Shown here piece after piece: positions 1-30,508 of a stretch of 37,649 nt of DNA. The translations under genes were made by a program, and so were the position numbers. This stretch comes from Gelidibacter algens. GTDB taxonomy: Bacteria > Bacteroidota > Bacteroidia > Flavobacteriales > Flavobacteriaceae. The stretch is from the NCBI RefSeq assembly GCF_001678675.1, contig NZ_LZRN01000040.1, positions 1 through 37,649 on the forward strand, in the 5' to 3' direction. The notes beneath the pieces were generated by a model, which saw only the letters and a list, made by a program, of their open reading frames with translations, searched no databases and was not told the origin of the DNA. Within the stretch, counting starts at the first letter, position 1, and the number at the start of each line of letters is the position of its first letter.

Positions 1-165
1 TAACGACACAGTGTATTTAGAAAATGTATTCTTATTATCGTACCAAAACCAAATTGTTTCTATAACAAAGTGGGTAAGGGTTTTAATTAAAGCTATTTGT
101 CTTTTTACTTTAATTAAACAAAAAAAAACTATTCTCTCGTCGGCCTATTGACGACCTAAATAGTA
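1..165 (-). other. possible degraded 3' continuation of the GT4 gene
   Basis: This stretch lies downstream of the stop that ends the truncated glycosyltransferase at 166-168. Read in the same minus-strand frame it gives YYLGRQ, a stop (TAG, 147-145), ADERIV and then an open frame to the window edge. YYLGRQ resembles the (F/Y)LGRQ strand that usually follows the GDG motif in GT4 enzymes, so the stops may sit inside a decayed GT4 C-terminal half. The remaining 48 codons show no clear GT4 signature and have no ATG, GTG or TTG start. They could belong to an unrelated truncated gene. Confidence 0.3.
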
Positions 166-954
166 TTATTTGTTTTTATAATCATAAATATTTTTTTTAA
201 TAATTTCTCTCATATAACCATCCCCTATAATTTTCAAATTGTAGGGAAGATCTTTGAATGCTTCAATTAAAAGATGAATTCCTTTTTCTTCAGAAAGTCT
301 TCCTACATAAATAAAATCATTTCCCTTTTCTGCTATTTTATTGTTTTTTGATTGAAACACAAAATGTGGTTTGACTAAAAAAGAGCTATTATTTATGCTA
401 AAGTTAGAGTCTTTATAGAGTTTAGCCATTGATGGGGTTAGACATATAAAACAGTTGATTTTATCCCAGGTTCGAATTTTTTTATGACTCCAAACTATGA
501 TTGCTAACCAAAAGGTCAATACCCATGAGTTTTTATAAACTTTATTCTTAATGGCTTTCCATGGAAAACTTTGCTCTAGGCTATCTAAAAATAAGATGTT
601 TTTATTTAGTAAGGTTGCCGAGGGACATAGCAATCTGTAATTATGTAAAGTACACACCAATGGGACACCCATTTTTTTAATGGTTCTTATTATTAAAGGC
701 CCAGTTGAAAAATGCCAATTGTGTAAGTGAACGATGTCTGGTTTGAACGCTTTAATTTTTGCTTTAACAATTTTCGCTTTTTTAATATTCCAGATGGAGG
801 AAGCAAACTGAATGGCGCCTTTGAGCCCATTATGGTTTTTAAATATTAAGGAGTCAACAACATAACTTTTTTTTAGAATTTCAATCTCTTGGTCAACAAC
901 ACTATCCTCCCCACCAAAGTGATAATATTGTGTATGAATAATTAAGATTCTCAT
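166..954 (-). pseudogene. GT4 (group 1) glycosyltransferase, C-terminally truncated
   Basis: A retaining glycosyltransferase of the GT4 family, presumably adding a sugar to the lipid-linked repeat unit at the cytoplasmic face of the inner membrane. The N-terminal GT-B domain is recognisable from its start (MRILIIHTQYY, then FGGEDSVVDQEIEIL). It contains PDIVHLHNWHF near residues 73-83 and the start of the nucleotide-sugar half (FIYVGRLSEEKGIHLLIEAF, then IIGDGYMREI). The protein stops at 262 residues where the family runs to about 370-400. The missing part would hold the E-x7-E donor-binding motif, so the product should be inactive. It is the last gene of the polysaccharide operon visible here. 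Acceptor and donor sugar cannot be deduced. Confidence 0.7.
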
Positions 955-997
955 TTGCTTGATAGATATAAATTTTGAAACTTATATTTAATTATTA

Positions 998-1058
998 AGT
1001 GCTTTTAAAAGTTTTTTAAGGTAAGACAAAATATAAAATCCACCTTTTCAAAAGCACT
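998..1058. repeat. inverted repeat between two glycosyltransferase genes
   Basis: AGTGCTTTT (998-1006) is repeated in inverse orientation as AAAAGCACT (1050-1058), with 43 bases between. It sits in the 148-bp gap separating the GT2 stop (1103) from the truncated GT4 start (954). The arms could pair in the transcript, but no T-run follows a compact stem, so it is not a typical intrinsic terminator. Function unknown. Confidence 0.3.
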
Positions 1059-1102
1059 CTTTATTTAACTATAAATATTTCTCTATTGAATGGTAACCTG
1101 TT

Positions 1103-1843
1103 TTAGGAAAAAATAGTTTTCTTAAGAATTCTTGTAAAAAGTGCAAAAACGTTTTCAAAAATATTCATTCCTGCATTTTTTCTTGCAACAAAACCTTGAT
1201 CTAATTCTTCTCGCAAACTTAACTGTCCACTGATTCCTCCTACTCGAAAGTTTACAATGGGTTTATTGATATGAACAAATTTGTTACCGCTCAAAAAAGC
1301 CGTTAAAGAAAATTGATAGTCTGCATAAGATGTTAATGCAATATTATATGAATATTTTTTATAGAGTTCTTTGGTAACAAACATTGAAGGATGTGAAAAA
1401 GTCATGCTTAAATATTTGAGCTTAAAAATGGAAGGATTATAAATGTATTCTTTTCTTGTATTATCTTGATTTACGTCATATCTGTTGCCATGAATTACTT
1501 TAGCTGAAGGATCTTTCAAATACAAATTTACAACTAATTCAACGGCATCTAATTCATACCAGTCGTCGCTGTTTATAGTGCCTATAAGCTCACCCTTTGC
1601 TATTTTCACACCTTTGTTCATAGCATCATAAAGACCTTTGTCAGATTCACTTATCCAGTAGGATATGTGGTCTTGGTTTTTCTTAATGATATTGATCGTA
1701 TTATCAGTTGAGCCTCCGTCTATAATAATATACTCAATATTTTTATAGGTTTGGTTTTTTACACTGTCAATGGTTTGCTGCAAATAGTTTTCGCCGTTGT
1801 AAACAACCGTAATAATACTTACTAATGGTAATGATGTATTCAT
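1103..1843 (-). CDS. GT2 family glycosyltransferase (WcaA-like)
   Basis: An inverting glycosyltransferase with a GT-A fold, expected to add one sugar to the growing undecaprenyl-linked repeat unit in the cytoplasm. The N-terminus PLVSIITVVYNGENYLQQTI is the standard opening strand of the family. DGGSTDNT (42-49) and NSDD (91-94, the DxD-like metal and nucleotide-sugar site) are in place, as is ESDKGLYDAMNKG (66-78), typical of WcaA/PGL-type members. At 246 residues it has normal length and appears complete, unlike its neighbours. Its ATG overlaps the TGA of the upstream polymerase gene by 4 bp (ATGA), so the two are translationally coupled. The sugar transferred is not predictable. Confidence 0.85.
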   Translation of the reverse strand: MNTSLPLVSIITVVYNGENYLQQTIDSVKNQTYKNIEYIIIDGGSTDNTINIIKKNQDHISYWISESDKGLYDAMNKGVKIAKGELIGTINSDDWYELDAVELVVNLYLKDPSAKVIHGNRYDVNQDNTRKEYIYNPSIFKLKYLSMTFSHPSMFVTKELYKKYSYNIALTSYADYQFSLTAFLSGNKFVHINKPIVNFRVGGISGQLSLREELDQGFVARKNAGMNIFENVFALFTRILKKTIFS

Positions 1844-3076
1844 TTGAATTTTATTAAAGAGTTTATTTCATTATCGTTCATCTGTCTGTATCTCTTTGAT
1901 AGAACAGTACCTATAGCCATCCATAAAAAAATAAAGGTAGGTGTAAACGCTGGTCTAAATTCTACTAAACTTAAAATTGACATCACAAGTATATAGTACC
2001 CCAATCTGCTTATGAACTTATTGTTTGACCTGAAAATACCTAAGTAGATCGCATAAATATAAAAAAGCATATGCAGCGCAAGCAAAATAAAACCCCCTTT
2101 TAATATCATTTGTAGATAGCCTACTTCAGTTGTAATTCTGATTGAAGAATCTCCATACCATTCTTTTTTCAAAATTTCTACGACATAATATCTGGTGTGT
2201 TCAAAATATTCACTGTAGTAGGTGCCTAATGACCCTCTGCCAATAAATTTTTCCATTGTCGATAATTCATTTGACAACTCTGTGAATAAAAATATCCTAG
2301 ACTCTTGAAAATTAATAAATGATGCAATAAAATTAGATATAACCTCATATCCAAGCGTAAATATAATTGTAAACACAAATAGAAATCCAAATAAAATATA
2401 TCTCAAAATAGTTTTTCTATCTCTAAGTAAAAGGAGCTTGTCCATTAATAAAAGTGAGAACGTCAAAAATAGAAAGACCAAATCTATTCGACGTGATGTA
2501 AAATAAGCATTTAATAAAATGTAAATAATAATAATTAAAAAGACTTTTATCTTATCAAATAACCGGTAATGATAAAGCCCTATTAGTAAAATAAAGTTAA
2601 CTGGCCTAACCAACATTGCCCAATCATTATAACCTTTATTATAAAAAAAGGAAATTAAAAAAAGTAGGAACATTAAATGAAACATGAAGAAAATAGTTTT
2701 GAAAACTGTAGTCCAGTTTTCAATCTTTAAACCTGGTATCAGTGCAATTGGCGCTATCCATGCGGCAGCCATATAGATATTCCCGAAATTTGTAACCCAA
2801 TCTTGGATAGATAATGAAAACCCTCTAATGATTATAATACACGACCCAAAAAATGATTAGATAAAATATTAATCTCGCATAACTGGAAATAGCTTTCAGT
2901 TGCTTGCTGTTTTTAATGCCTATTGTAATGAAGGCGATTAAGGAAAATAGCATGAAACTTGTAATTATAATCTTTTGAATATTAATTCCCTGGGGTACAA
3001 ATATTATATTTAAAAAAATATAAATTACAACACTATATAAAGCCCATTGTAATAATCTTTTTACTGTAATAAACAT
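1840..3076 (-). pseudogene. wzy: Wzy-like O-antigen polymerase, frameshifted
   Basis: Two overlapping-frame pieces make one polytopic membrane protein. The 83-residue N-terminal piece (3076-2825, three hydrophobic segments) ends at TAG 2827-2825. The second piece is open from about 2856 through its first ATG at 2772 to 1840, because the frame upstream of that ATG already reads RGFSLSIQDWVTNFGNIY. Removing one base between 2825 and 2856 joins them into about 411 residues with some ten membrane segments and a periplasmic loop (about ESRIFLF to RITTEVGYLQ). That is the size and layout of Wzy/O-antigen-ligase-like proteins, which polymerise lipid-linked repeat units. These proteins have little sequence conservation, so the name rests on topology and context. 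As written, the gene cannot give a full product. Confidence 0.6.
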
Positions 3077-3153
3077 TTGTAGGGTTTTATAATTTATATC
3101 TGTAAAATGCTCAAATTTGCTTAGACATCTATTTTAGCACTTTTTCTTCCGCT

Positions 3154-4293
3154 CTATGTCGTTTTGCTGCTATAAAATTCTTTTATAGTTTTTACTATTT
3201 TATCAATAGACAATTCTTCTAATTCATAATACATTGGTAATCGCAATAAGTGATTTGAATAATAGTCACTTTGTGGTAGTTCCCTTCCTCCATGAATACT
3301 CGAATAATAATTACTGTTATGCAAACTTAAATAATGAAAAACTGCAAAGATATTTTTCTTCTTTAGAAAATCGATAAGCTGGGCTCTGTCATTTTCTGAA
3401 TTACAAACAATGTAGAACATGTGACCATTATTTGTAGCATTTTCAGTGACAACTGGCAACTTCAATTTTCCTTCTTTCTCTAAACTTATTAAGCCATTAT
3501 AATAATGATGCCAATTAGATATCCGTTTTTTTTGAATTTCCTCTATATTTTCGAGTTGAGCAAACAGGAATGCTGCCGTTAGTTCTGAAGGCAGAAATGA
3601 AGATCCAGTATCGACCCATCCATACTTATTAATTTCTCCTCTAAAAAAAGAAGCTCTATTTGTACCTTTTTCCCATAGAATTTCGGCTCTTTCTATAAAT
3701 TTGTCTTCATTGATTATTAAGAGGCCGCCTTCACCGGCAATGACATTTTTTGTTTCGTGAAAAGAAAATGCTCCTAAATGGCCTACTCCTCCCAAGGGCT
3801 TATTTTTATAATAGGAATCTACGCCTTGAGCCGCATCTTCCACAACATAAAGGTTGTATCTATCTGCTAGTTGCATAATTTTATCCATTTCAACAGCGAC
3901 TCCTGCATAGTGAACTGGAACGATTGCTTTGGTGTTGTTATTAATAAGAGATTCTATGGCGTCCACATCCATATTTGGCTGAGATTTGCCCGAATCAACG
4001 AAAACAATTTTCGCGCCTTGTCTTACAAAGGCCAACGCTGTAGAAACAAAAGTATAAGAAGGCATTATGACCTCATCTCCTTCTTTAATATCTAACAGCA
4101 TAGCACACATTTCTAAGGCATCAGTACAAGAAGTCGTAAGTAACGTTTTCTTAAACTTATATTTTTCTTCAAAAAAAGTTTGACATTTTTTCGTGTATTT
4201 CCCATTGCCAGACAAATGGCCTGAATACACAGCATCTTGGATATAAAAGGTCTCTTTTCCCGTCAAATAGGGCTTATTAAATGGAATTTTCAC
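3154..4293 (-). CDS. wecE: dTDP-4-amino-4,6-dideoxygalactose transaminase
   Basis: A PLP-dependent sugar aminotransferase (DegT/DnrJ/EryC1 family). It would aminate C4 of dTDP-4-keto-6-deoxyglucose, the RmlB product made in this locus, using glutamate. Similarity to E. coli WecE/RffA runs through the whole length. Shared stretches include EGDEVIMPSYTFVSTA (71-86), IVPVHYAGVAVEMDKIM (124-140) and VVEDAAQGV (150-158, Asp contacting the PLP ring). GAFSFHETKN (174-183) supplies K182 as the PLP Schiff-base lysine, and AVFHY lies near the C-terminus. Length 379 residues is normal. The start is GTG at 4293 and gives the expected family N-terminus (MKIPFNKPYL). It overlaps the repaired end of wecD by 17 bp. 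Intact. Confidence 0.9.
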   Translation of the reverse strand: MKIPFNKPYLTGKETFYIQDAVYSGHLSGNGKYTKKCQTFFEEKYKFKKTLLTTSCTDALEMCAMLLDIKEGDEVIMPSYTFVSTALAFVRQGAKIVFVDSGKSQPNMDVDAIESLINNNTKAIVPVHYAGVAVEMDKIMQLADRYNLYVVEDAAQGVDSYYKNKPLGGVGHLGAFSFHETKNVIAGEGGLLIINEDKFIERAEILWEKGTNRASFFRGEINKYGWVDTGSSFLPSELTAAFLFAQLENIEEIQKKRISNWHHYYNGLISLEKEGKLKLPVVTENATNNGHMFYIVCNSENDRAQLIDFLKKKNIFAVFHYLSLHNSNYYSSIHGGRELPQSDYYSNHLLRLPMYYELEELSIDKIVKTIKEFYSSKTT

Positions 4294-5007
4294 TGTCTTT
4301 TTTATTTAAAATGAAATGATATATATTAGATTTTGTCTCAACTTTATAACCTAACCTGCCATAAAAATTGAGCGCTTTTTTATTTGTTTATTTGGGTTGC
4401 TACAGAAATATTATCTATTCCTAACCCAATCAAATGATTTTCAGCTATACACATAAGTTCGTACCCTAATCCTTTACCTTGCATACTATTGTCCACGGCA
4501 ATAAGACCAACACTACCTGAATTTGAACTTATTTCTAAGGTTATAAAACCAACTATATTATTTTCTATGTTTGCAAACATAAATTACACAGTTTTTATTC
4601 ATGCATGAATTCTCGATCCATAAGTTGTACATTTTTTCAAATGTAAAACTCGGTAGCCTTTTATCGGTTTTGTATCGGGAATATTTTCCGCTGATTCTCG
4701 CTAATTCGTATAACTTGTCATTTGGGATCGTCTCAGTATATAATTCAAAACTGTTTGTGATATTATTTTTAAATTCTAGCCCTTGCTTTGTAAATAGCAC
4801 TTTTTCATCGACCAGTTTCCCATTATAATTAGCTAAAACACTTGCATTTAAGATTATATTTTCACTAAAAACATAATATAACGCGGTTTGATTACGATTG
4901 ACAGAAAACACTTTTTCAATTTCAACATCGCTAGTATAATCTATTTTAAACACTGGGAAGTCAAAAAAATTTGAATCCCATTCTAAATATTTAACAAGTG
5001 AGTTCAT
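4277..5007 (-). pseudogene. wecD: WecD-like dTDP-fucosamine N-acetyltransferase, two frameshifts
   Basis: A GNAT-family N-acetyltransferase that would acetylate the 4-amino sugar made by WecE. Three reading-frame pieces line up. Piece one (5007-4558) has the WecD-like N-terminus YLEWDSNFFDFPVFKI. Piece two carries the acetyl-CoA domain, with NNIVGFITLEI and GLIAVDNSMQGKGLGYELM (the Q/R-x-x-G-x-G/A loop). A third, just downstream, reads ALNFYGRLGYKVETKSNIYH and ends at TAA 4279-4277. The frame changes between 4557 and 4586, and again at the AAA run 4383-4385, where removing one A restores TQINNKKALNFYG. The repaired protein is 242 residues, close to the 224 of E. coli WecD. It overlaps the flanking GT4 by 17 bp and wecE by 17 bp. 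As written it is non-functional. Confidence 0.75.
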
Positions 5008-6285
5008 TACTATTTATGATTTTCAAAAAATTATTAGCCGATACTTCTCTTGAATATTCTTTTCTAGCCAATAAAGCACAATTTTCTTTTACAATAGTCC
5101 TTGCCTCCTTGTCCAAATCATACAGTTTCTTAATTCCCTTAGCTATTTCTTTGGCGTTATATAATTCGGCTTTAAATCCTGTTTTTCCATTAATTACAAT
5201 ATCTCTAGCGACACCAATATCAAAACAAACTACAGGTGTTCCACAAGCAATTGACTGATTGACCATCATTGGCCCAGAATCTTGTATAGTTGTTGTAACA
5301 AATACGTCGGCCAGATTATACACATCCGCTAATCGATGATAATCTGAAATGTAACCTAAATTAACAATATTAAAGCTTGTATTCGGCAACAAATCTTCAA
5401 GTTTACCATTGCCAATTGACACTATTGTAACGTTACTTGTTTCATTGTTTTTGCATAAAAAATTAATGGCATCTATAAAATACTCAACCCCTTTTCTTAA
5501 CTCACCTACCCTTACTGCACCAAATAGAATAACAAAATCATTTATTGGAACGCTATTATGCTTTTTTAAGGCGGTTTGGGCTATTTTTATAATTGAACAC
5601 GTTAAGATTAATACCACCCAAAACGAAAGTAAACTTTTTTTGATTTAAACAGCGTGCTTGCTTTTGCATAAGCATAATCTTGAGATGAAAGAGCAATTAA
5701 GTTAATGTCCATTTTATCGATAAAGTCTTTATTTAGTTTCAAATTATCTTGAGCATAATGTTTATACCTTTCTTCAACAATTGCAGGACACCCTGAACAA
5801 TTATTTTTATACCCTAAGCAATTCCAAGCATAATGACAACCTCCTGTAATATAGACCATATCAGCCATCACCAAATAGACTGGTACGTTATTATATTTGG
5901 CCTGCAAATTATATAAATCTTTAATTGTAAAGAAGCCCCCCATAAAATAAGCAATAATAATGTCTGGCTTTTTTATTTTTTGTACAACCTTGTTTATATT
6001 AATAAGACTCTTACTTTGATCTACATCAAAGAAATAGTATTTCGGGTTGGTTTCTATTCTGTTTTTATCAAAAAAGAGATCAATTAGCTTATTCTTTGCT
6101 CGTTTTAGAAACCATTCGGAGGACGAATTATATGAAACGACACCTTTCTCTTTAACCTTGGTGTGCAATGTTAGAATTTCAGAATTATTCCGTTCTGCCA
6201 ACGGCTTATGCAAGTCATAAGCTATTATACCAGAAGCACTATTAACATCAGAAGACGATATGATTAATATATTACGCTTATTCAA
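4991..6285 (-). pseudogene. GT4 glycosyltransferase (WcaC-like), two frameshifts
   Basis: A GT-B fold glycosyltransferase for repeat-unit assembly. The N-terminal piece (6285-5608) starts NILIISSSDVNSASGIIAYDL and has a Cys cluster, GGCHYAWNCLGYKNNCSGCP, typical of WcaC-like and related GT4 enzymes. The C-terminal piece (about 5560-4991) has DFVILFGAVRVGELRKGVEY and ADVFVTTTIQDSGPMMVNQS followed by ACGTPVVCF. Between them a third frame reads VLGGINLNVFNYKNSPNRL, which is the expected linker. Removing one base near 5625 (extra C on the coding strand) and one A from the A6 run at 5562-5567 joins all three into about 430 residues, the family length. Its start overlaps the wzx stop by 8 bp. Sugar specificity is unknown. 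Confidence 0.75.
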
Positions 6286-7694
6286 TTTCTAACTTTCGTA
6301 TTGTTTTTTTATAGTAAATAGGATACACAACAAGTCCCATAACATTGGCAACAATGGTAGCCAATATGACTCCTGATACTCCAAAGTTTAAATTTTTCGC
6401 AAAAAAAATGGAGAGTGGTATATTAAGCAATGCGCTAAATACGCCGAGGCCTAGTTGAACGTTTATTTTTCCTGTGCCATTAATAAAAAATATAAAGGGT
6501 TGGGTCAATAAAGTCGTGATTACAAATAACGACATAAAAATTGATAGGCGTTTAGAAATGACGACTTCTTCCCCTACCCATATTTCATATACCCACCCAG
6601 CGATAAAAACCATGGCAATTGCAACGATTGAAAATAAGAATGACAATTTAATAAGGTTAGTCATGGATTTCTTTATCCAGAGGATGTCGTGTTTTGCATA
6701 TGCATCAGTAATCGCCGACCAAAAAGGAGTTACAATAATTGAAAAACCCATAGTAACAATACTAAAATATTTAAATGCAACATTATATGGGATGATATCT
6801 GCTGGAGAAAATAAATGAGTAATAATTAAATTATCGGTTGTATATAAGACTATGGCAGCAATTTGAATAACAAAAAACTTCATGCCCAAGCCCATAATAT
6901 CAATTACATATTCCAATTTAAAAAGCTTAAAACTTGGTTTCAAATCTTGATAATCTGTGTTAAAAGCATATAAATTAAAAAACACAAGCAATAGTAATGG
7001 AACAATTGAAAAAATAATTGAGAACATAAGAAGCGATGAACTAAAAAAATTTGTCAGGACAAAAACTGATGCTACTAATAAAATTTGAGTCAAAAGCTCA
7101 ATAAGGCCTTGCATTGCAGGCCGTTGATCGGCTATATAAATAGTAGATATTAATTTAACAATAAATTGAATTGAAAAACATCCAAATACAACTAACATTA
7201 TTAAAGATAAATCGGAGACTAAATTTACATCAGTATTAAAAACCTTTGTCCAATCTATAAAGAGGTTGGCTATATAAAATAAAACAAAAAGTGATGCACT
7301 AATAATGGTAATAAAAAAATATGAAGAACTAATATATGCTTTTGCCAGTTGCATATTATCATTAGCCTTGGCTTCTGTAAATTTATTTCTCAAACCGTGT
7401 CCTAATCCAATATACAAAAAATGTGAACCACGAAATAAACGACGTAATTATGAGCCAGATCCCATAATTCGTAGTATCTAGATAGTTAATTATTAGTGGG
7501 ACTAATAATAAACTGGCCAGAATACTACCTCCTTTATAAAAAAAGGAGATTGAAATATTTTCAACTATATTTTTTGTTCGGGCACTTTTAACTCCAAGAG
7601 TATCTAATATTTTAAGTATGTTTTCTTTCAACAGTTTTCTATTAATATTCCAATTGTTAAATTTTCTGGTTTGCTTCTTCAAATTCAACTGCAT
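6278..7694 (-). pseudogene. wzx: Wzx-type polysaccharide flippase, frameshifted
   Basis: An inner-membrane flippase of the MOP/PST superfamily that moves the undecaprenyl-linked repeat unit to the periplasm. The N-terminal piece (7694-7383) contains SFFYKGGSILASLLLVPLII and GIWLIITSFISWFTFF. The rest (7417-6278) has about ten further membrane segments. The break falls at the signature FDIGLGxGLRNK. The sequence reads TTTTTTGTATATTGG, and removing T at 7414 gives TTTTTTGATATTGG, restoring FFDIGLGHGLRNK. The repaired length is about 471 residues, normal for Wzx. The apparent TTG start of the second piece at 7417 is a consequence of the shift, not a real start. The true start could be a later codon, since the first residues before LLKENILKIL are not family-like. 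Confidence 0.8.
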
Positions 7695-7806
7695 GTTTCG
7701 ATCCCATACGATTTAATTTAGAACCATTGGCTAGTTTTCTTATAGTTCCTTCTAATTTTGATGATTCACGAGCTGATTCTTCTTTAAATTTCATGATAGA
7801 TTTCAT
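7657..7806 (-). CDS. 49-residue hypothetical ORF between rmlD and wzx
   Basis: A short ORF in the 324-bp space between rmlD and wzx. It starts at ATG 7806 (a second ATG is at 7794) and ends at TAA 7659-7657, overlapping the annotated wzx start by 38 bp. The product is polar and charged (MKSIMKFKEESARESSKLEG at the N-terminus, GSKHAVEFEEANQKI at the C-terminus), with no membrane segment or signal peptide. I do not recognise it. The frame runs a few codons upstream of the first ATG, and a neighbouring frame encodes a helix-like LYVLSNLIRLLHFAKLLSES that ends at a stop. The whole may be the remnant of a longer broken gene. If it is real, wzx probably starts later than 7694. Confidence 0.3.
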   Translation of the reverse strand: MKSIMKFKEESARESSKLEGTIRKLANGSKLNRMGSKHAVEFEEANQKI

Positions 7807-8018
7807 TATATCTTTGACTAATTCAAAATAATCGATTCTGATAGAAGTTTAGCGAAATGCAATAATCTAATCAAGTTCGATAATACATACAATTTTTCTA
7901 AATCGAAGTGCTGATTAATGCCAAGGCATTACTGCATTGCAAATTATGTCTGATCTCTACTATATAAAAAATATTCCCTGACTGTTTATCACTAATTTGG
8001 ATAGATAACTTTAAGCTT
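7807..8018. other. intergenic remnant upstream of the wzx block
   Basis: No complete gene is visible between rmlD (ending at 8019) and the short ORF starting at 7806. One minus-strand frame is open for about 35 codons without a start (HFDLEKLYVLSNLIRLLHFA and onward) and stops just inside the 49-residue ORF. This looks like gene debris. It marks the junction between the intact rml block and the frameshift-rich assembly block. Confidence 0.3.
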
Positions 8019-8888
8019 TTAAAATGTCGGTTTTTTTGGCTTTTCTAAACATAACTCCAAACTATCCCTCCAATACATAGGCCTGCTATTAAAAACCAGT
8101 TTTATTTTTGTTTTATCCAAAACACTAAACGTTGGTCTCCTGGCCAATGTAGGGAAATCACTTGACGGAATTGGGACAACGTTAATATTCACCTTATTAA
8201 TTTCAAATATGGCCTTCGCAAAATCATACCAACTGGCAACACCTTCATTACTATAATTATACGTGCCAAATTTTACACTCTCCGTAGTAATCAACTCTAT
8301 GATAAATTGGGCTAGATCTCCAGCATAAGTTGGTGTTCCAATTTGATTGTCAACTACATTGAGTACTTTCTTCTCATTGGATAAATTTAGCATGGTGAGC
8401 ATAAAGTTCTGTCCAAACTCACTATATAACCAAGAGGTCCTAAGAATAAAATACTGTTCTAAAATTGACGCGATCTCTAGTTCCCCTTGCAATTTTGTTT
8501 TTCCATAACTATTTAAAGGTCCAGTAGCGTCATATTCTGTGTAGGCCATATTTTGCTTTCCATCAAAAACAAAATCCGTAGAAATATGAACCAGTTTGGC
8601 AGTATGTTTTTCACACGCCTGTGCTAAATTTTTGGCACCAGTGACATTTACGTTTTGAACTAACTCTTGTTCTATTTCGGCACGATCTACAGCAGTATAG
8701 GCGGCACAATTAATGCACCAATCGATCTTGTTGTTGTTGAAGAATTCTAAAACATTTAAGGCATTAGTAATATCTAATACATTTTTATCTACAAAAATAA
8801 AATGGAGCTTAGGATAGAGCTGTGAGATGGCGTTTATACAACTTGCCAATTGGCCGTTACCACCAGTAACAAGGACAGTTGCTTTCAT
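8019..8888 (-). CDS. rfbD: dTDP-4-dehydrorhamnose reductase
   Basis: RmlD, the last step of dTDP-L-rhamnose synthesis: NAD(P)H-dependent reduction of dTDP-4-keto-L-rhamnose. It is a short-chain dehydrogenase with the nucleotide-binding loop GGNGQL (9-14), a THR-like site HISTDFVFDG (101-110) and the catalytic YGKTK (Y128, K132). Downstream VLRTSWLYS-type sequence (ILRTSWLYSEFGQNF) and DNQIGTPTYAGDLA are RmlD signatures. It has 289 residues, normal. Its ATG overlaps the rfbC stop by 4 bp (8885-8888). It closes the intact rml block, after which the 324-bp gap precedes wzx. Confidence 0.95.
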   Translation of the reverse strand: MKATVLVTGGNGQLASCINAISQLYPKLHFIFVDKNVLDITNALNVLEFFNNNKIDWCINCAAYTAVDRAEIEQELVQNVNVTGAKNLAQACEKHTAKLVHISTDFVFDGKQNMAYTEYDATGPLNSYGKTKLQGELEIASILEQYFILRTSWLYSEFGQNFMLTMLNLSNEKKVLNVVDNQIGTPTYAGDLAQFIIELITTESVKFGTYNYSNEGVASWYDFAKAIFEINKVNINVVPIPSSDFPTLARRPTFSVLDKTKIKLVFNSRPMYWRDSLELCLEKPKKPTF

Positions 8889-9430
8889 TTGAAAAGAGTT
8901 TCAAATGTTGGAAGCTCTTTATCTTTTTCTGAAATAACAAACGCATCTTCTGGCAACTTCCAATCAATGTTTAAGGATTTATCATTATAAATAATACCGC
9001 CTTCAGAAGCTTTATTGTAATAACTATCACATTTATAAGAAAATATGGTGTCGTCTTCCAAGACTAAAAATCCGTGTGCAAACCCTTGAGGAATATAAAG
9101 TTGTTTATTATTTTCAGCACTCAGAACTAGCGAGAAGTGTTGACCCAAAGTTTCAGACTGTGGACGGATATCAACAGCCACATCTAAAACACTCCCTTGT
9201 ATGACTCTAACCAATTTAGCCTGTGCAAAGTTTCCCATTTGAAAATGGAGTCCTCTGAGCACCCCCTTCTGTGAAGTTGATTGATTGTCTTGAACAAATT
9301 CAACACAATGACCTGTCAACTCTTCAAACTTCTTTTTATTGAAACTTTCAAAAAAAGTTCCTCGAGAATCCGCAAAAACTCTTGGTGAAATTAAATAACA
9401 GTCATTTAGATATGTTTGTTCTATTTCCAA
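8885..9430 (-). CDS. rfbC: dTDP-4-dehydrorhamnose 3,5-epimerase
   Basis: RmlC, a cupin-fold epimerase that inverts C3 and C5 of dTDP-4-keto-6-deoxyglucose to give dTDP-4-keto-L-rhamnose. The active-site segment KGVLRGLHFQ contains catalytic H62. KLVRVIQGSVLDVAVDIR and YIPQGFAHGFLVLED (the second conserved His region) follow in the usual order. At 181 residues it has family length. It starts 7 bp after the rfbA stop and overlaps rfbD by 4 bp. It competes with WecE for the same intermediate, so it is one arm of the branch point in this locus. Confidence 0.95.
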   Translation of the reverse strand: MEIEQTYLNDCYLISPRVFADSRGTFFESFNKKKFEELTGHCVEFVQDNQSTSQKGVLRGLHFQMGNFAQAKLVRVIQGSVLDVAVDIRPQSETLGQHFSLVLSAENNKQLYIPQGFAHGFLVLEDDTIFSYKCDSYYNKASEGGIIYNDKSLNIDWKLPEDAFVISEKDKELPTFETLFK

Positions 9431-9437
9431 CGTCCAA

Positions 9438-10295
9438 TTATTTTAACTCTAATAAATATTTACCATAGCCACTTTTCAAAAGAGGTTCTGCCAACGCATG
9501 TAATTGCTGTATATTTATGAAGCCCATCTTATAAGCCGCTTCTTCAATAGAACCAATTTTGAGCCCTTGGCGCTCTTCAATAACCTCAACAAACTGAGAG
9601 GCCTGCATCAATGATTTAAAGGTACCTGTATCTAACCAAGCGGTTCCTCTGTCCAAAATACTGACACTCAGTTTTCCTTGTGCTAAATAGGCCTTATTCA
9701 CATCAGTAATTTCAAGCTCTCCTCTCTTACTTGGTTCAATATTTTTAGCAATAGTGATCACATCATTGTCATAAAAGTAAATTCCGGGAACTGCGTAGTT
9801 GGATTTTGGATGGGTCGGTTTTTCTTCTATGGAAATGGCATTGTTGTCATCATCAAATTCAACCACACCATAACGCTCAGGATCATTGACATGATAGGCA
9901 TAAATAATCCCTCCTTCGGGATTACTATTTTTTTGTAATAACTCAGATAATCCAGATCCATAAAAAATATTATCACCCAAAATCAAGGCCACTTTGTCTT
10001 TACCTATAAACTTTTCTCCTATTAGAAATGCTTGTGCCAAACCATTGGGCTCTGCTTGTACTTCGTAATGAAATTCACAACCAAATTGAGTGCCATCTCC
10101 TAACAATAGCTTAAATAGCGGCAAGTCTTGAGGTGTAGAGATAATTAAAATTTCCCTAATTCCTGAATACATTAAAGTAGAAATTGGGTAATAAATCATA
10201 GGTTTATCATAAACAGGCATCAATTGCTTGCTTATGGCCAACGTTAATGGATGTAACCTCGTACCCGACCCTCCTGCTAAGATGATTCCTTTCAT
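9438..10295 (-). CDS. rfbA: glucose-1-phosphate thymidylyltransferase
   Basis: RmlA couples dTTP and glucose-1-phosphate to dTDP-glucose and pyrophosphate, the first committed step for both dTDP sugars of the locus. The nucleotidyltransferase signature [11 protein letters not shown] is at 8-18. [28 protein letters not shown] and the late [14 protein letters not shown] and [10 protein letters not shown] motifs match RmlA throughout. At 285 residues it is complete. Its ATG begins on the base right after the rfbB stop codon, consistent with coupled translation. RmlA enzymes are generally feedback-inhibited by dTDP-rhamnose. That is family knowledge, not visible here. Confidence 0.95.
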
Positions 10296-11339
10296 TTAAT
10301 TGTATTGTTTTTGATAATACGATTGATAATCGCCACTGGTAACACTTTGCAACCAAGTTTCATTATTTAAATACCAATCGATGGTAATCTCTAGTCCTTC
10401 TTCAAAAGTTACCGAGGGTTTCCAACCCAATTCTTTATTTATTTTTGAAGCGTCAATAGCATATCTTAAATCGTGTCCTGGTCGGTCTTTGACATAAGTG
10501 ATCAACTTTTCTGAAGCACCCTTCTCTCTGTTCAGTTTTTTATCCATTTGTCGACACAACAGTATTACCAAATCGATATTTTTCCATTCATTAAAACCTC
10601 CAATATTGTAGGTCTCATGATTTTTACCTTTGTGAAACACTAAGTCGATTGCTATGGCATGGTCTTTTACATACAACCAATCCCTAGTATAATTGCCATC
10701 ACCATACACAGGCAACGGTTGATTATTTATGATATTGTTTATAAAAAGGGGAATCAATTTTTCAGGAAATTGATTTTGTCCATAATTATTGCTACAGTTA
10801 GTTATGACATAAGGCATTCCGTAGGTTTCACCATACGCTCTTACAAAATGATCAGAACTTGCTTTGGAAGCAGAATAGGGTGAGTTTGGATCATAAGGCG
10901 TTGTTTCGGTAAACAAGCCAGTTGGTCCTAAGGAACCATAAACCTCATCAGTACTGATGTGATAAAACAGTTTATTGTTGAAATTATCTTTCCAAGTGTT
11001 TTTGAACGCGTTTAGAAGAATCATGGTGCCAATAACATTTGTTTTCACAAATGCTAATGGGTCTTTTATAGAACGATCTACATGGGATTCAGCTGCCAGA
11101 TGAATGACGCTTGCAAACTTATGTTTTTCAAATAAGTCGTTTATAAAAACTTCGTTAGTGATGTCTCCTTTAATAAACGTGTAATTTGGTTTGTTTTCAA
11201 TATCCTTTAAATTTTCTAAATTACCAGCATAGGTGAGTAAGTCTAAATTAAATATCTCATAATTAGGATAATTATTGACAAATAATCTTACGACATGCGA
11301 CCCTATAAAACCTGCGCCTCCTGTAATTAATATTTTCAT
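10296..11339 (-). CDS. rfbB: dTDP-glucose 4,6-dehydratase
   Basis: RmlB, an extended short-chain dehydrogenase that converts dTDP-glucose to dTDP-4-keto-6-deoxyglucose with bound NAD+. Visible are the dinucleotide loop GGAGFIG (7-13), HLAAESHVDRSI (80-91), STDEVYG (129-135, with the Asp-Glu acid/base pair) and YSASK (Y155, K159). NYGQNQFPEKLIPLFI and DRPGHDLRYAID follow in order. Length 347 residues is normal. Its product is the branch point between RmlC/D and WecE/D. The start overlaps the upstream Wzz-like gene by 4 bp (11336-11339, ATGA). Confidence 0.95.
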   Translation of the reverse strand: MKILITGGAGFIGSHVVRLFVNNYPNYEIFNLDLLTYAGNLENLKDIENKPNYTFIKGDITNEVFINDLFEKHKFASVIHLAAESHVDRSIKDPLAFVKTNVIGTMILLNAFKNTWKDNFNNKLFYHISTDEVYGSLGPTGLFTETTPYDPNSPYSASKASSDHFVRAYGETYGMPYVITNCSNNYGQNQFPEKLIPLFINNIINNQPLPVYGDGNYTRDWLYVKDHAIAIDLVFHKGKNHETYNIGGFNEWKNIDLVILLCRQMDKKLNREKGASEKLITYVKDRPGHDLRYAIDASKINKELGWKPSVTFEEGLEITIDWYLNNETWLQSVTSGDYQSYYQKQYN

Positions 11340-12397
11340 GTTATGTTATTTCTACTATAATTTTTAAGATACTTGTTTAATGATAGCAATAATATAAGTA
11401 GCACTGTTACAATTAAAAGTGCACTAGGTATTAGAAACTTATAGCTTTTTAAAATTCCTTTGTCGCGTACGCCTTTTCTAGGAAAATCAGAAATCACGTT
11501 TAGAATACTAGACTTATTGCCTCGTTCCTTGTTAAGTTCTACAAGACCTAATTGCAAATCTTCCATTTTATTAATCAATGAAAGCTCTTTGTTATCCTGT
11601 CTGCCATTTTCGCCAAGGCTAATGTTTGTGCCTTGTAATGAACGCTCCGCTTCTTTGAGCATCACCCTTTTATATAGTAACTGCAAAGAATCTATTTCTG
11701 TAATTTGCTTGTTATAAAGACTGTCTTGTAATTTGATATTGCTATCGCTAATATCTTTTTGCAAATTGAAATAGCTATTATTTGAAATAGAAGAAATGAT
11801 GGCAGGCTGAATTTTTTTTGCAACGGTATTAACACTTGCTATAACGGATATTGTATGAAAGCGAGCATCATATGAATTAAAATTTTCAAGATATGATTTC
11901 ATATCTATCGCTTTTTGAGTTGTGGTATCCAAACTACGCACAAATTTATCAAATAATACTATTTTCTGATTTTCATCAGAGTAGGATTCCACTTTGAACT
12001 TTCTTATAGCCAAGGCCTCTGTTTCAGTAATACTTAAGGCTTCAGAAAGAGACAGAAAATCTTCAGCCTTTGCTAGCTCGTTGTAAAAAGCAATATTATT
12101 GTATAGTTGTTGAACACTATTAAAGTTAGGTTCAATGACCATAGTTGAAATATATTTAGGCTCTTTCTTTGCGTCTAAGATGGCACCTATAATAAAACCT
12201 ATAACAACAACAACAGCAAATTTTACAAAATGCTTTTGGATGAAAAATAAAAACAGAAGGATCACTCCAAATAGTCCTTTAAAAATACGTCCTATAAATC
12301 TGAAAAACCGTTCAAAAAGCCTTCCAATAGCATTAAATAATTGACCTAAATCCACCTCCTCATTTGGCGGCTGTGGTTTTCTTAAATCTTCATTCAT
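11336..12397 (-). CDS. Wzz-like chain-length determinant family membrane protein
   Basis: A 353-residue inner-membrane protein with the layout of polysaccharide co-polymerases. It has a cytoplasmic proline-rich N-terminus, hydrophobic segments at about 41-54 and 57-75, a long periplasmic region with coiled-coil character (about 80-315) and a C-terminal membrane segment (321-340). YISTMVIEPNFNSVQQLYNN after the first segment resembles the extracytoplasmic start of Wzz domains. It directly precedes the rml genes and would set the chain length of the polymer made by Wzy. It lacks a C-terminal tyrosine-kinase domain. Membership is inferred from topology and context, as sequence identity to classical Wzz is not obvious. 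It begins 9 bp after the preceding gene, so it may share its transcript. Confidence 0.6.
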   Translation of the reverse strand: MNEDLRKPQPPNEEVDLGQLFNAIGRLFERFFRFIGRIFKGLFGVILLFLFFIQKHFVKFAVVVVIGFIIGAILDAKKEPKYISTMVIEPNFNSVQQLYNNIAFYNELAKAEDFLSLSEALSITETEALAIRKFKVESYSDENQKIVLFDKFVRSLDTTTQKAIDMKSYLENFNSYDARFHTISVIASVNTVAKKIQPAIISSISNNSYFNLQKDISDSNIKLQDSLYNKQITEIDSLQLLYKRVMLKEAERSLQGTNISLGENGRQDNKELSLINKMEDLQLGLVELNKERGNKSSILNVISDFPRKGVRDKGILKSYKFLIPSALLIVTVLLILLLSLNKYLKNYSRNNIT

Positions 12398-12406
12398 AAA
12401 TTTAAA

Positions 12407-14095
12407 TTAATTAAATATTTGATGTAATATTTTTCGTGTGATGAGATAGGTGGGCTTTACACCTGAGGTTCCCAAACCACCTGAGGCCAAAGTACTTCCT
12501 GTTTCCAAAGGATTATCACTGGCATAATACGCATATCTCACCTTAACTTTAGGGTTGATACTCCCCCTTACCTTTGAGGCAGCTTGTATCGCTTTTTGAT
12601 AATGTGCACCTTCCATTTCCAGTCCAATAACATTCCAGGTTGAATTGTAAAAGAATTTTAAAATCTCCTTATTTTGAAGTGATGTCCCTAAAACCGTAAT
12701 CATAGATCCTTCATAGACGTTGATGCCATGGCCTTCAAAATCACCTTTTGAAAGTTCATTTTCGAGCGGATAATTATCTGCTGTCCCCTCAAATATATGA
12801 GCTGACGGGATCATGATATCCCCTTTTCCGCCTTCTAAAATTCCGGCTTTCCCCATAATTGAAATGGAATCTACATTCAGAAAAATTTTCTTGCCGTTTA
12901 CTTTTATAGGCTTTAGTAATTCGTCAATTGTTTCATAGGCCTGTTCCCCAAACGCGTAGTCCATCACAAAAAGTACCGGTTTTTCTGAATCCTCCATCAT
13001 TTTGGGTGCATCGAGATCTGTTTTAAGAAAATCAATCTTAGCGGTGTCAAAAATCTGCACGTCAATATTTGTTCCTGAAGTATCAGGAATATAAATCATC
13101 CCTCTTTGCAAGGCCTCTTTGGTGACTTTATTGCGCAATTCTTGATTTTCTTTTTGGCTTAAGGCTTCATAAACCTCAAACATGTTCTTTTTAGCAGCCA
13201 GCGCTTTCAGGGCCTGAGGCGCAAAAAGTGAATTCATGACACTGTGCATGTTTGCACTGATGACATGGATAGGACGTTCTATGAGTCCGTTTTTCAAGAG
13301 TGCCTCCTTAATGCTGTCTGCCCAAATTTCGCCATGGATATGATGCCCCAAACGCTCCCTTAGTACAGGACTAAACGTAACCGTACGCCTGTTGTTATTA
13401 ACCACTTCCTCAATGGCCAATTTACCCAACCAATACACTAAATGCAATAAGCGCTCTGGCTGATTTGGCAAGGAAAAAGCACTGTACACTTCAGTAAGCT
13501 CATTAAACGTTCTACCCAAAATATTGGCTGTATGTGTAATGGCAACCTCTCTATCTTGTTGTGATAATTCTTGATTTGAAAGCACTGCCTTCTCCAATTT
13601 TATCCAATCGCGGGTGGTTGTTCCTTGCTCATCAATAAGCACGCGTTTGCTTATTTTGTGCGACTCGACAAACATAAAGGTCAAGTGGGTTAGAATATCA
13701 TAGATTTCTGAACGACCACGAGTGATTTCAATATTCATTTGCTCATCGTCAATCCGAAAACAATTACGTCTTCTTTTTGGCGGAATTATGGCTTTAAAAT
13801 GAGAATTGGTGTAACCTTCATCACTGGTGAGGTTGATAAACGTGCACTCTTCGATTCCATAAGGAAGGCGATCAATGACATAGAGAAGCCCTTCCAATTC
13901 TGCCTTCTCTTCGCCTATGGAACCATAAATTTCAGGTCTTAAAAGTAATAAGGATTCACGAAGCGTTTCGCCAGAAATGCCCATAGGTTTGTAAAATCCG
14001 CGATTGAACAAATGCCGCATTGTAATGTACATTCTTTCAATAGCATTAGAGCTTTCTTGAGCTCGCGTTCTGGCATGATGCTTTTTATTACTCAT
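12407..14095 (-). CDS. uncharacterised protein with nucleoside-phosphorylase-like C-terminal half
   Basis: A 562-residue soluble protein that I take to be one of the uncharacterised families common in Flavobacteria. The C-terminal half carries what look like PNP/UDP superfamily landmarks in the right order. These are a glycine-rich GKAGILEGGKGDIMIPSA (415-432; compare G-x-A/G-G-x-L and GDIVIP of phosphorylases), NVYEGSMITVLGTS (459-472), GLEMEGAHYQKAI (491-503; the ME-G-A motif whose Glu contacts ribose) and YYASDNPL (523-530; compare the catalytic SD-x-P-L of AMP nucleosidases). The N-terminal 400 residues are mostly helical and not recognised. A nucleosidase or phosphorylase role is an inference from these motifs. 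It has its own TATATTTG -7 element and sits just upstream of the Wzz-like gene. Confidence 0.6.
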   Translation of the reverse strand: MSNKKHHARTRAQESSNAIERMYITMRHLFNRGFYKPMGISGETLRESLLLLRPEIYGSIGEEKAELEGLLYVIDRLPYGIEECTFINLTSDEGYTNSHFKAIIPPKRRRNCFRIDDEQMNIEITRGRSEIYDILTHLTFMFVESHKISKRVLIDEQGTTTRDWIKLEKAVLSNQELSQQDREVAITHTANILGRTFNELTEVYSAFSLPNQPERLLHLVYWLGKLAIEEVVNNNRRTVTFSPVLRERLGHHIHGEIWADSIKEALLKNGLIERPIHVISANMHSVMNSLFAPQALKALAAKKNMFEVYEALSQKENQELRNKVTKEALQRGMIYIPDTSGTNIDVQIFDTAKIDFLKTDLDAPKMMEDSEKPVLFVMDYAFGEQAYETIDELLKPIKVNGKKIFLNVDSISIMGKAGILEGGKGDIMIPSAHIFEGTADNYPLENELSKGDFEGHGINVYEGSMITVLGTSLQNKEILKFFYNSTWNVIGLEMEGAHYQKAIQAASKVRGSINPKVKVRYAYYASDNPLETGSTLASGGLGTSGVKPTYLITRKILHQIFN

Positions 14096-26284: not shown

Positions 26285-26695
26285 TCAGTCGAGCTGTGCT
26301 AAGTAGTAATTTTCTTTCGAACGCATCTCAGCCTCGTCTGCTTCGCTCTTGTCTTTGTAACCGCAATAATGTAGAATTCCATGTATCAACACCCGACTCA
26401 TTTCGTTCTCAAAACTTACCGCATAATCTTTGGCATTCTCCCTTACGCGCTCAGCAGAAATATAAACATCACCGTTTATTTGCTTCCCAAGAGTATAGTC
26501 AAAACTAATAATATCGGTTAAAGTGTCATGATCTAAATACTGCACATTCAACTTTAAGAGATATGCATCATCACAGAAAATGTAATTAATTTCACCTTCG
26601 TTGAAGCCTTCCTCAGTAATGGCTTTTGCTATCCATTCAGACAACTTTTGCTCATTGTCCAATTGTAATTCTGTTTCGTAATTATAACTAATCAT
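26285..26695 (-). CDS. ybeY: endoribonuclease YbeY (rRNA maturation)
   Basis: A zinc-dependent endoribonuclease involved in 16S rRNA 3'-end maturation and ribosome quality control. The diagnostic metal motif HGILHYCGYKDKSEAD starts at H105, with H109 next. The usual third histidine is replaced by D115 (GYKD rather than GYDH), a variant I have seen in Bacteroidota. NYIFCDDAYLLKLNVQYLDHDTLTDIISF, split here as INYIFCDDAYLLKLN and HDTLTDIISFDY, matches the family's central region. GDVYISAERV is also conserved. It has 136 residues, normal. Its start overlaps the end of the DUF4175 gene by 8 bp, so both are co-translated. Confidence 0.93.
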   Translation of the reverse strand: MISYNYETELQLDNEQKLSEWIAKAITEEGFNEGEINYIFCDDAYLLKLNVQYLDHDTLTDIISFDYTLGKQINGDVYISAERVRENAKDYAVSFENEMSRVLIHGILHYCGYKDKSEADEAEMRSKENYYLAQLD

Positions 26696-29600
26696 TCTCC
26701 TTTTTAAAATACTCTTGAACCTTCTTCTTATAAATTTGCTGCAAAGGTAAGGCTTGCCTATTTAATATTTCAGTAGTATTAAAATATTCTTTGGCTGTAG
26801 GAATTTGATTGTTAGAGGTGTTCTCAAACTGCTTCAAATTGGTATTAGACTCTCGCCTATTTTCTTCTCCTTGCATAAAGGTGGCATTCTCCAGTTTCAA
26901 CAGTTGATGCTGTAAACTCATCATCCGCTGCAAGGTCTGATTGGTAAATCCTTTATTGATCAAATCTGATTCAATAGCCTCCATTTGCTTCAAGAGATTT
27001 TGACCTTGAACCGACTTACCCATTTCTTGTAATTTATTTTCTAAAGCCTGCCGTAACTGTTGCTGTTGTTGGTAAATACGATAAAGTTCACCATTCATAG
27101 TTTCAGAAGAGCCCTCACCTTCTCCGTCAGATGTACCCCCGTTCCCTTCTTTTCCTTCTTTACCAGACTTTCCATTCTCTTTCTCACCTTTTTCACCATC
27201 ACCGTTCTCATTTCCTTCCCCATTTTTTGGTTTACCCGAGCTACTCTTTTTTAAGCCTTCTTCCATCTGTTTGTTCAATTCCTTCTGACTCATAATAATA
27301 TCTGGCAATTGCATCCCTTCACCTCCTTGTCCTTTCCCCTTTCCTTGTCCGGGATTCATTGCCGATTCCATATTGTCCAAAATATCACTTAAATAACTAG
27401 CCAAATCATTGGTAGCCGTAATAGTATATTGTTGCGTCGCCACCCCTTGATAGAGTAAGTTCTCAGAAAGTTGTCCCATAGACTTGTCTATGTTATAAAA
27501 AACGTCAGTTATCTTCTTATTGACATCCTCTGACAGTTTCGGCTGGCGAAGGGACAATGCGAACAAACTATCATCGATATGCTCAAAATGCTCTCTTAAG
27601 CTACTTTGCTTGCGTAGAAATTTACCATATTGATTATGGTTTATTTGAATGCTTTTAAATTGATTCATCAAACCCTCTTGATCAAATGAAAACAACACCA
27701 AATTATCCAAAATTTGGCGTAACATTTCTGCATCTTCCTGCATTTGTTCTTGACCTCCAGACATCATTGACTGGCTCATTTTAGCACTCATTTGCTTCAT
27801 TTTCTTTGCAGCGTCTTTTTGTTTTTGTTGCGCACTCTTTTGCTTCTGATCAACAGTATTTTGGTCATTCTTTTCTTCTGCATCTTCTTTCTTTTCAAGA
27901 TCCTCAGATGCTTCTTGTTGATCTTTTTGAATTTCCTTTTCTGTCTCTAAGTCCTGAGGCACATTCAATGGTTTCTTCAAGGCCTTATTCTCTTGTTGCA
28001 GTTTATCCAATTCCATTTGGAAATCTTCAAAGTCCTCATTTAAATCATCCTGCTTTTCTTTAGTATTCTCCTCTTTATTTTCTTTGGACAATTCATCTTG
28101 ATCTTCAGCCAATTTTTCAAGATCTTCTTGCAACTTTTCTGCTTTCTTTGCCACATAATACCTTTTGGTCAATTCCAACAATTGCTGTAAACTCTTTTGT
28201 TTATTCTTATTTTGCTTGGCAAGGTCATCCAATTTTTCAGTCAGTTCTTCCTTTTGGATTTTATCTTGAAGCGCTTCAAGTTCCTTTAAAAGTTTTTCGT
28301 CCTTTTGCAGTTGCTCTTCATTATCTTTTAAACGCTCTTTAAGATCTTCTTTAAATGGATCGTTCTCGGTATTTTCCTTTTGGAAATCCTCAAGATTTTC
28401 TTTGAGTCGTTTATTGAAATTTTTCATCATCTCCTCTTGCTGCTTTTGACGCTGGATAAAACTTTCAAGTTTTTTTTTGTCATTGAAATTGAGCTGTTCT
28501 TTTTCCTTTTGAGTTTTTGATAATTCTTCCAACTGCTTCTCCTGAAGTTTCATTTTTTCAAAAGAATTGTCCAAATTTTTAATCGTTTCATTCTGCTCCT
28601 TCAATTGTTTAACCTCTTCTTCATCCTTAGTGAGCTTTCGATAAGTATACACATTACTTTTTACACTCTTAAATTTATGAATGGCATCATTATCAAATAC
28701 TTGAAAGTAAATTTCGTAAGTGACACCCTCTTCTAAAAACAAATTATTGGGGAAAGCACTCACAAATTCAGCAAAATTTGACTGGACGACAGGAATGTCT
28801 TCCATTTTTTTATCAACTTCATTTTCTGCGGGATAGTACACCAATTGCAATTTGCTCAAGCCATAATCATCACTAGCCTGGCCGTAGAAGTAGAGTGATT
28901 GCTGGTCAATAGAATCTAGTTCAACCTTCATATTAAGTTCAGGGTACGCATCTTTGGTGACTTGAATACTATATGCCAAATTTTCATAGTTCTTCAGCGA
29001 TTTGTTACTTGTCGCAATATTGTATTCCAAATTTGAATAGAGACGTTTGGAAATTTCAAAGCTACCCTCGCTTTTGATATCAAAATCCAAAGTATCATTA
29101 GCATACATGACCACTTGCTCTGTAGAGCGGGTCTTGATTTTCCAAGTGATAGCGGTACCTTCAGGGACAGTCGTATTTCCTGTACTTTTCAAGACCTCAT
29201 CTACCCTATTGGTATATGACGGATAATCCAAGACCATCTCAAAATTCACCAACGTGGGCACGTTAACAATATTTAGTTCATAAGGTTTTGAGATCACACC
29301 ATTCGCTGAAAGTGTAAATGAAACGTCGTTCTTTAATTGCGGAAAAATATATTCAAAGGCTCCTGGAGCTGTTGGTCTTAAAAAATAAGTTTCACCCAAA
29401 TAGTGGATTTGAGCATTTTCTGGAACAACCTTCCCTGCAGTTTTTACAACCAATTTAAATTCTTTGTTTTCTATAGTCTGAAGCTGCTCATTTACCACAA
29501 AAAACTGAAAAGGTGCAGGTGGTTCATAAGCGGTTTTATAATTGACCACACGTTGATAACTGTCACTGAACCAGTTAAAATGCCCAGTAAAGAACGTAAG

Positions 29601-30092: not shown

Positions 30093-30276
30093 AATCGCTT
30101 TGAAAGACCTAACTATTTAACTTACTAAACTACAATTTTATTTTAACCTATAATTGCCTTAATTAGATAAGCTTGTGTTAATTTAGAGCAATCAATGAAA
30201 GTTTTTTGCGCGTCCGGTTGCGAAACCATGACTTCAAACTAAATCACTATGGACTAAAGTGCCATAGATTTTTTAA

Positions 30277-30295
30277 AACAGACTGAAAGTCTGTT
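30277..30295. repeat. compact hairpin AACAGACT-GAA-AGTCTGTT
   Basis: AACAGACT (30277-30284) and AGTCTGTT (30288-30295) form an 8-bp perfect stem around a GAA loop. No T-run follows on the plus strand. It looks more like a dispersed palindromic element than a terminator. Confidence 0.45.
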
Positions 30296-30350
30296 GCATT
30301 CGTGAAATTTACAGTAAATGATTTACGACTGTATTTTCAATGAACCAATG

Positions 30351-30379
30351 AATTCGTGAAAATTCGTGAAATTCGTGTC
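30351..30379. repeat. tandem AATTCGTGA repeats (three copies)
   Basis: AATTCGTGAA, AATTCGTGA and AATTCGTGTC lie head to tail (30351-30360, 30361-30369, 30370-30379). A fourth related word occurs at about 30298. Function unknown. Confidence 0.5.
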
Positions 30380-30508
30380 AAAATTTTTAGAAGCTAAAGC
30401 GAGATGCACTAAAGTACATAGTTTTAACAAAATCTGAGACCAATAAAATTAGGTCAATAATTTTCTTAGGACTGTCATTCTAGTCTAAAATGAGCTTTCC
30501 TTCGGTAC

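Follow-up and report, generated by a model that had tools for sequence, protein, structure and literature searches.

Are the four polysaccharide genes that are interrupted by frame changes at the left end of a contig of the sea-ice bacterium Gelidibacter algens decaying in the living strain, or were they misread during sequencing? The window analysed here is the entire contig C40 (37,649 nucleotides) of an assembly of this species, referred to as G000, and the genes in question code for a wzx-like flippase, a GT4 glycosyltransferase, a WecD-like acetyltransferase and a wzy-like polymerase. A sequence-only reading of the window had offered two explanations: a recent loss of the surface polysaccharide, and insertion-type errors in a badly covered or strain-mixed locus of a long-read assembly. 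Our comparisons give a probability of roughly 0.93 that the frame changes are sequencing or assembly errors of a 454 draft rather than decay, and the genes are probably intact in the living strain.

Frame changes in the polysaccharide assembly genes

The congeners G002, G005 and G006 (taken to be Gelidibacter salicanalis), together with G007, were used as comparison genomes. Six insertions, all +1, had been proposed from the letters of the window, and two calculations reproduced them: the spans of the wzy, WecD-like, GT4 and wzx genes exceed a multiple of three by 1, 2, 2 and 1 bases, respectively, and tblastn searches with congener proteins returned collinear pieces whose frame changes 1, 2, 2 and 1 times. 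The frame passes from -1 to -2 in wzx (at 7416-7420), from -3 to -1 and on to -2 in both the GT4 and the WecD-like genes, and from -2 to -3 in wzy (other sites in Table 1). For the GT4 and WecD-like genes G006 alone served as reference, for wzy G002 and G005, and for wzx all three genomes; the +1 sign was computed directly for the five sites having G006 partners and deduced by hand arithmetic on the tblastn frames for the wzy site. The repaired lengths claimed by the sequence-only reading, about 430 (GT4), 242 (WecD), 471 (wzx) and 411 (wzy) residues, are equal or close to those of the orthologues, which count 430 and 242 residues in G006 and 467 and 408 in G002 and G005. The comparison with relatives that it had recommended showed all these orthologues in one frame except the wzx of G006.

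Between the broken genes, the GT2 (residues 9-248 of 252) and DegT (full length) genes each keep a single frame. The absence of such lesions from the other 30 kb was likewise confirmed, no genuine frame change being found at 8-37.6 kb wherever congener open reading frames (ORFs) cover the window (26.6-29.3 kb of the whole window per congener). One shift that seemed to be present at 9430-9528 (rmlC) was rejected: this region is situated upstream of where rmlC starts, and the shift arises from the use of stop-to-stop ORFs. Homology was preferred to an ab initio codon-usage frame decoder, which in these atypical genes found a switch close to just one of the six known shifts.

A real pseudogene would be expected to carry mixed insertions and deletions, nonsense changes and relaxed codon constraint. 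In the four genes we found only +1 changes, and five frame pieces from wzx, GT4 and the WecD-like gene contain no in-frame stop. The proportion of differences to G006 falling at third codon positions is 48-70% in these five pieces and 71% in DegT.

The sites are also close to homopolymers. Five of the six lie at most 5 bases from a run of at least 5, and the mean distance from a site to such a run is 6.7 bases versus 31.5 for random positions (P=0.003), site positions being alignment gap placements and, for wzy, an interval midpoint, which calls for caution.

Insertion-rich patches

The last 172 bases at the left contig end, where the GT4-type gene 166-954 enters an insertion-rich patch, had been overlooked by the sequence-only reading. 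Blastn alignment of positions 1-172 to each of G002 and G005 required 16 insertion events, adding up to 32 bases, but not one deletion, with 18.4-19.1% mismatches as compared with 15.0-17.5% in the rest of the gene. Such a pattern looks like noisy reads and not like a decaying gene.

A second patch was detected inside C32, at about 32.2 kb (4379-4508 of the searched piece), in a gene whose 1529-residue G007 counterpart has NOV_C and HATPase domains. Aligned to G007 at 89% identity, it shows 7 insertions and 1 deletion in 130 bases; the rest of the C32 alignment to G007 (about 6.9 kb) has one lone insertion and one compensated pair.

Frame changes elsewhere in the genome

A set of 742 G006 ORFs was used to probe G000, covering 125,954 of the 921,121 bases searched, 100,982 of them outside the window. 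A single frame change, +1, in an unnamed gene on C26, was found in these 100,982 bases, only 1,194 of which have a local GC content of at most 0.33, so that nearly all of this coverage is at ordinary GC. We then searched a non-random sample, made of four AT-rich stretches chosen by hand for their low GC together with C80 and the C49 end. One +1 frame change was found on C38 (at about 5 kb), in an RteC-like gene, and two on C32, in the NOV_C/HATPase gene. On C49 (at about 24.9 kb), which bears the opposite side of this polysaccharide locus, there were two more +1 changes, one in a bacterial sugar transferase gene and one in an epimerase gene, the latter resting on 31-37% identity. At the AT-rich left end of C26 and on C80, little congener DNA was matched.

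Altogether, the 12 frame changes found in G000 (C40, C49, C38, C32 and C26, most of the places outside the window having been picked for low GC) are all +1 modulo 3; for the five on C49, C38 and C32 the sign was obtained by hand arithmetic on alignment frames. The reverse scan, with G000 ORFs on G006 DNA, covered 131,544 bases and gave 4 frame changes, of signs +1, -1, +1 and -1. The mixed signs in G006 differ from the uniform +1 of G000. As judged from their sequences, the genes hit on C26, C32 and C38 appear to have no evident link to polysaccharide. The restriction of the lesions to polysaccharide genes, on which the idea of a recent polysaccharide loss had been based, therefore holds within the window and fails at the scale of the genome.

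Source of the assembly

G000 comprises 140 contigs and 4,506,948 bp, with an N50 of about 87 kb and an L50 of about 15 (interpolated from 41 contigs). The published draft of G. algens ACAM 536 was obtained with 454 GS-FLX/Plus reads of mean length 430-440 bp assembled with Newbler 2.8 at 30-fold coverage, and consists of 140 contigs with an N50 of 88 kb, an L50 of 13 and a size of 4.50 Mbp (PMC5009979). From these agreeing statistics we infer that G000 is this 454/Newbler draft, in which case the lesions would be pyrosequencing errors and not long-read errors. For the G. algens type strain, a deposit of about 4.45 Mbp is cited in PMC6767994.

According to Gilles et al. 2011 (PMC3116506), insertions are the commonest error of 454 data, become more frequent as the 3' end of a read is approached and are linked to homopolymers, with a mean error rate of 1.07%. 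The window resembles 454/Newbler drafts in having frame-shifted genes within an otherwise sound draft, and its lesions resemble the residual insertion errors of such drafts as characterised there. The terminal patch differs in that its insertions are packed much more densely than that mean rate and that few of them extend a run.

Two contig overlaps were found among the sampled G000 contigs, of 9,842 and 961 bases, each 100% identical. C72 is redundant, its entire 9,842 bases recurring at the end of C11. In C65, bases 1-961 correspond to positions 2081-3041 of C32, reversed.

Base composition and contig ends

The GC content of the polysaccharide locus is 30.5% versus 36.7% in the rest of the window, and the assembly breaks inside this locus, where C49 ends and C40 starts. 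The 2.3 kb separating C49 and C40 in G005 had no match in the searchable G000 DNA, in which the sampled contigs of at most 2.8 kb read N; G000 may also differ from G005 there. Terminal 2-kb pieces of the sampled contigs have a mean GC of 0.349 (n=60, a set including small contigs and one duplicated end) versus 0.375 for inner pieces (n=120), and 12 of the 60 terminal pieces but none of the 120 inner ones are at or below 0.315. When contigs shorter than 21.7 kb and the C49 end were left out, the terminal GC was 0.351 (n=41), with 6 of the 41 pieces at or below 0.315 (P=8e-5). AT-rich contig ends fit thin coverage, as deduced from composition, and thin coverage of AT-rich DNA would explain both the breaks and the errors.

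Origin of the frame changes

Sequencing error would account for these observations as follows. In the AT-rich polysaccharide locus the 454 assembly would have had thin coverage and would finally have broken there. With few overlapping reads, single inserted bases, mostly near homopolymer runs, would have been kept in the consensus about once per kb, and the last 172 bases would be the error-laden end of a single read or of a very small number of reads. The proposal of insertion errors in a badly covered locus is strongly supported in its core by the exclusively +1 changes, the patches and the unrelated genes affected. Its details are not: the matching publication describes a 454 GS-FLX/Plus and Newbler assembly and not a long-read one (PMC5009979), and no sign of a strain-mixed locus was seen, the two sampled contig overlaps being identical throughout.

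Several observations weigh against this explanation. Outside AT-rich DNA, G000 is not error-rich, with 1 frame change in 100,982 bases versus 4 in 131,544 for G006; since it has no more frame changes there than G006, the errors would be local and not genome-wide. As so few of the covered bases are AT-rich, the link to AT-richness comes from the hand-chosen stretches. The frame change on C26 lies at ordinary GC (0.381). Conversely, C35 is AT-rich, yet a 614-residue orthologue is in one frame at 2.1-3.9 kb and the other covered part, from 4.8 kb onward, is clean as well, and long ORFs are present in C85 and C90 (32% GC). No frame change was found in gene-level matches that come as close as 57-772 bases to five ends of C5, C20 and C26, so the tail of C40 may not represent a general feature of contig ends. 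Insertions in the patches seldom lengthen runs (2 of 16 and 2 of 7, with chance giving 6.0 and 3.0), an argument against simple overcalls; signal dephasing would have to be invoked. A test of the inserted bases against the 454 flow order pointed neither way. Lastly, the identity of G000 with the ACAM 536 draft is deduced, its interpolated L50 of about 15 being compared with a printed 13, and the argument as a whole is one of sequence comparison, from which low coverage at the sites is likewise deduced.

A reading of this locus in terms of polysaccharide loss would most likely be mistaken, and apparent pseudogene clusters in AT-rich, variable loci of older drafts call for caution because they can be coverage artefacts. 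The 181 pseudogenes listed for the G. algens ACAM 536 draft (PMC5009979) may include such artefacts.

Alternative explanations

The alternative that survives best, although improbable, is a mixed case in which most lesions are artefacts and one or two are real. The six sites are indistinguishable by sequence alone, and the wzx of G. salicanalis is split as well: on contig C18 of G006 it forms ORFs of 200 and 245 residues near a T run (4228-4240 of the searched piece), elsewhere than the window site. This split may be real, the G006 record having a SPAdes-style coverage of 183. It is equally improbable that at least one lesion of the window, most plausibly that of wzx, is real, and that repeated inactivation of wzx in the genus amounts to an on/off control of the surface polysaccharide. 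The common sign of all six changes and the closeness of five of them to runs argue against a mixed origin, as no site stands out.

Slightly less credible is the idea that the insertions are errors brought in by an assembly that was long-read or strain-mixed. Raw single-molecule reads show insertion-type noise, which the insertion-only noise at the contig end resembles, and most patch insertions do not lengthen homopolymers. Against this, the assembly is in 140 contigs, those sampled with numbers of at least 100 being at most 2.8 kb long, and it agrees with a published 454/Newbler assembly (PMC5009979). The complete identity of the overlaps of 9,842 and 961 bases is unlike a strain mixture.

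Real and recent loss of the surface polysaccharide through independent insertions in wzx, GT4, wecD and wzy, for instance under selection by phages or predators, is very improbable. The frame changes of the window are limited to one pathway, and the outside rate of 1 in 100,982, which applies to ordinary-GC DNA, does not predict six within about 6.5 kb (P of about 1e-10). However, a single lesion would already be enough, leaving selection with no reason to produce six, and all six are +1. Loss would also leave aside the terminal patch with its 16 insertions and no deletion; we know of no mutational process that yields such a series in 172 bases. Unrelated genes elsewhere in G000 bear the same type of lesion, and the five pieces examined in wzx, GT4 and the WecD-like gene contain no in-frame stops and appear to be under codon-level constraint.

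Programmed frameshifting or homopolymer phase variation can practically be dismissed: most sites are near homopolymer runs and the G006 wzx is split, but there are six separate sites, inspection of the alignments by eye revealed no common slippery motif, and apart from that wzx every congener orthologue used keeps a single frame.

Gene organisation of the window

Table 1. Genes at the left end of the window, with frame-change sites and supporting matches
Feature	Position	Strand	Observations
GT4-type glycosyltransferase tail, insertion-riddled contig end	1..172		blastn vs G002, G005
GT4-type glycosyltransferase	166..954	-	in frame for residues 1-261 of the 391-residue orthologue, then lost in the contig-end patch
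GT2 glycosyltransferase	1103..1843	-	PF00535, 6.2e-31; single frame
wzy-like polymerase gene (putative)	1840..3076	-	one +1 within 2840-2850; tblastn, 408-residue G002/G005 orthologues
DegT/DnrJ/EryC1 aminotransferase	3154..4293	-	PF01041, 4.1e-83; full-length, single frame
WecD-like GNAT acetyltransferase gene	4277..5007	-	two +1, within 4565-4570 and 4387-4392; tblastn, 242-residue G006 orthologue
GT4 glycosyltransferase gene	4991..6285	-	two +1, within 5617-5663 and 5562-5587; tblastn, 430-residue G006 orthologue
wzx-like flippase gene	6278..7694	-	one +1 within 7414-7420; tblastn, G006/G002/G005 orthologues
rmlD, rmlC-like, rmlA and two further genes	8019..12397	-	start of the remainder without frame changes

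Several names in Table 1 depend on homology and context. The GT4 piece 4991-5617 carries PF00534 (9.8e-22). The wzx piece of the window remains below the curated cut-off of PF01943 (23.4 versus 28.2 bits), as does the unsplit G002 orthologue (28.1 bits); the name was kept as likely from homology and context. For the WecD-like gene, the N-terminal window piece, the only one scanned, had no Pfam match, and the G006 orthologue matches PF00583 (1e-16) in its C-terminal half. No Pfam match was found for two window pieces of wzy or for its G002 orthologue, and this putative name comes from position, context and the sequence-only reading. The rmlC-like gene is named after its position between rmlD and rmlA.

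We take the cluster to be a Wzx/Wzy-type polysaccharide locus of Flavobacteriaceae, with which it shares wzx, wzy, GT4, GT2, DegT and rml genes having orthologues in G006, G002 and G005. It departs from this class in being a mosaic of G006-like and G002/G005-like parts: within positions 1-12463, the segment 3172-7650 matches G006 (77%), and segment 1-2309 (78%) and the rml side (73-74%) match G002/G005. This pattern suggests recombination between two locus types. The DegT protein is 88% identical to a protein of Gelidibacter salicanalis IC162.

Rfam and tRNA scans of the window returned a tRNA-Cys only, and Rfam at gathering scores found nothing in 17 small contigs, nine of which read N. Positions 26688-30092 of the window encode a protein of 1134 residues with a long Glu/Lys/Gln-rich stretch and a strong GC and AT skew, for which no NCBIfam match was found. 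A 213-base repeat (30237-30449), flanked by one ORF that ends at 30092 and another that starts at 30509, is 97% identical to a site on C2 (10876-11088 of the searched piece).

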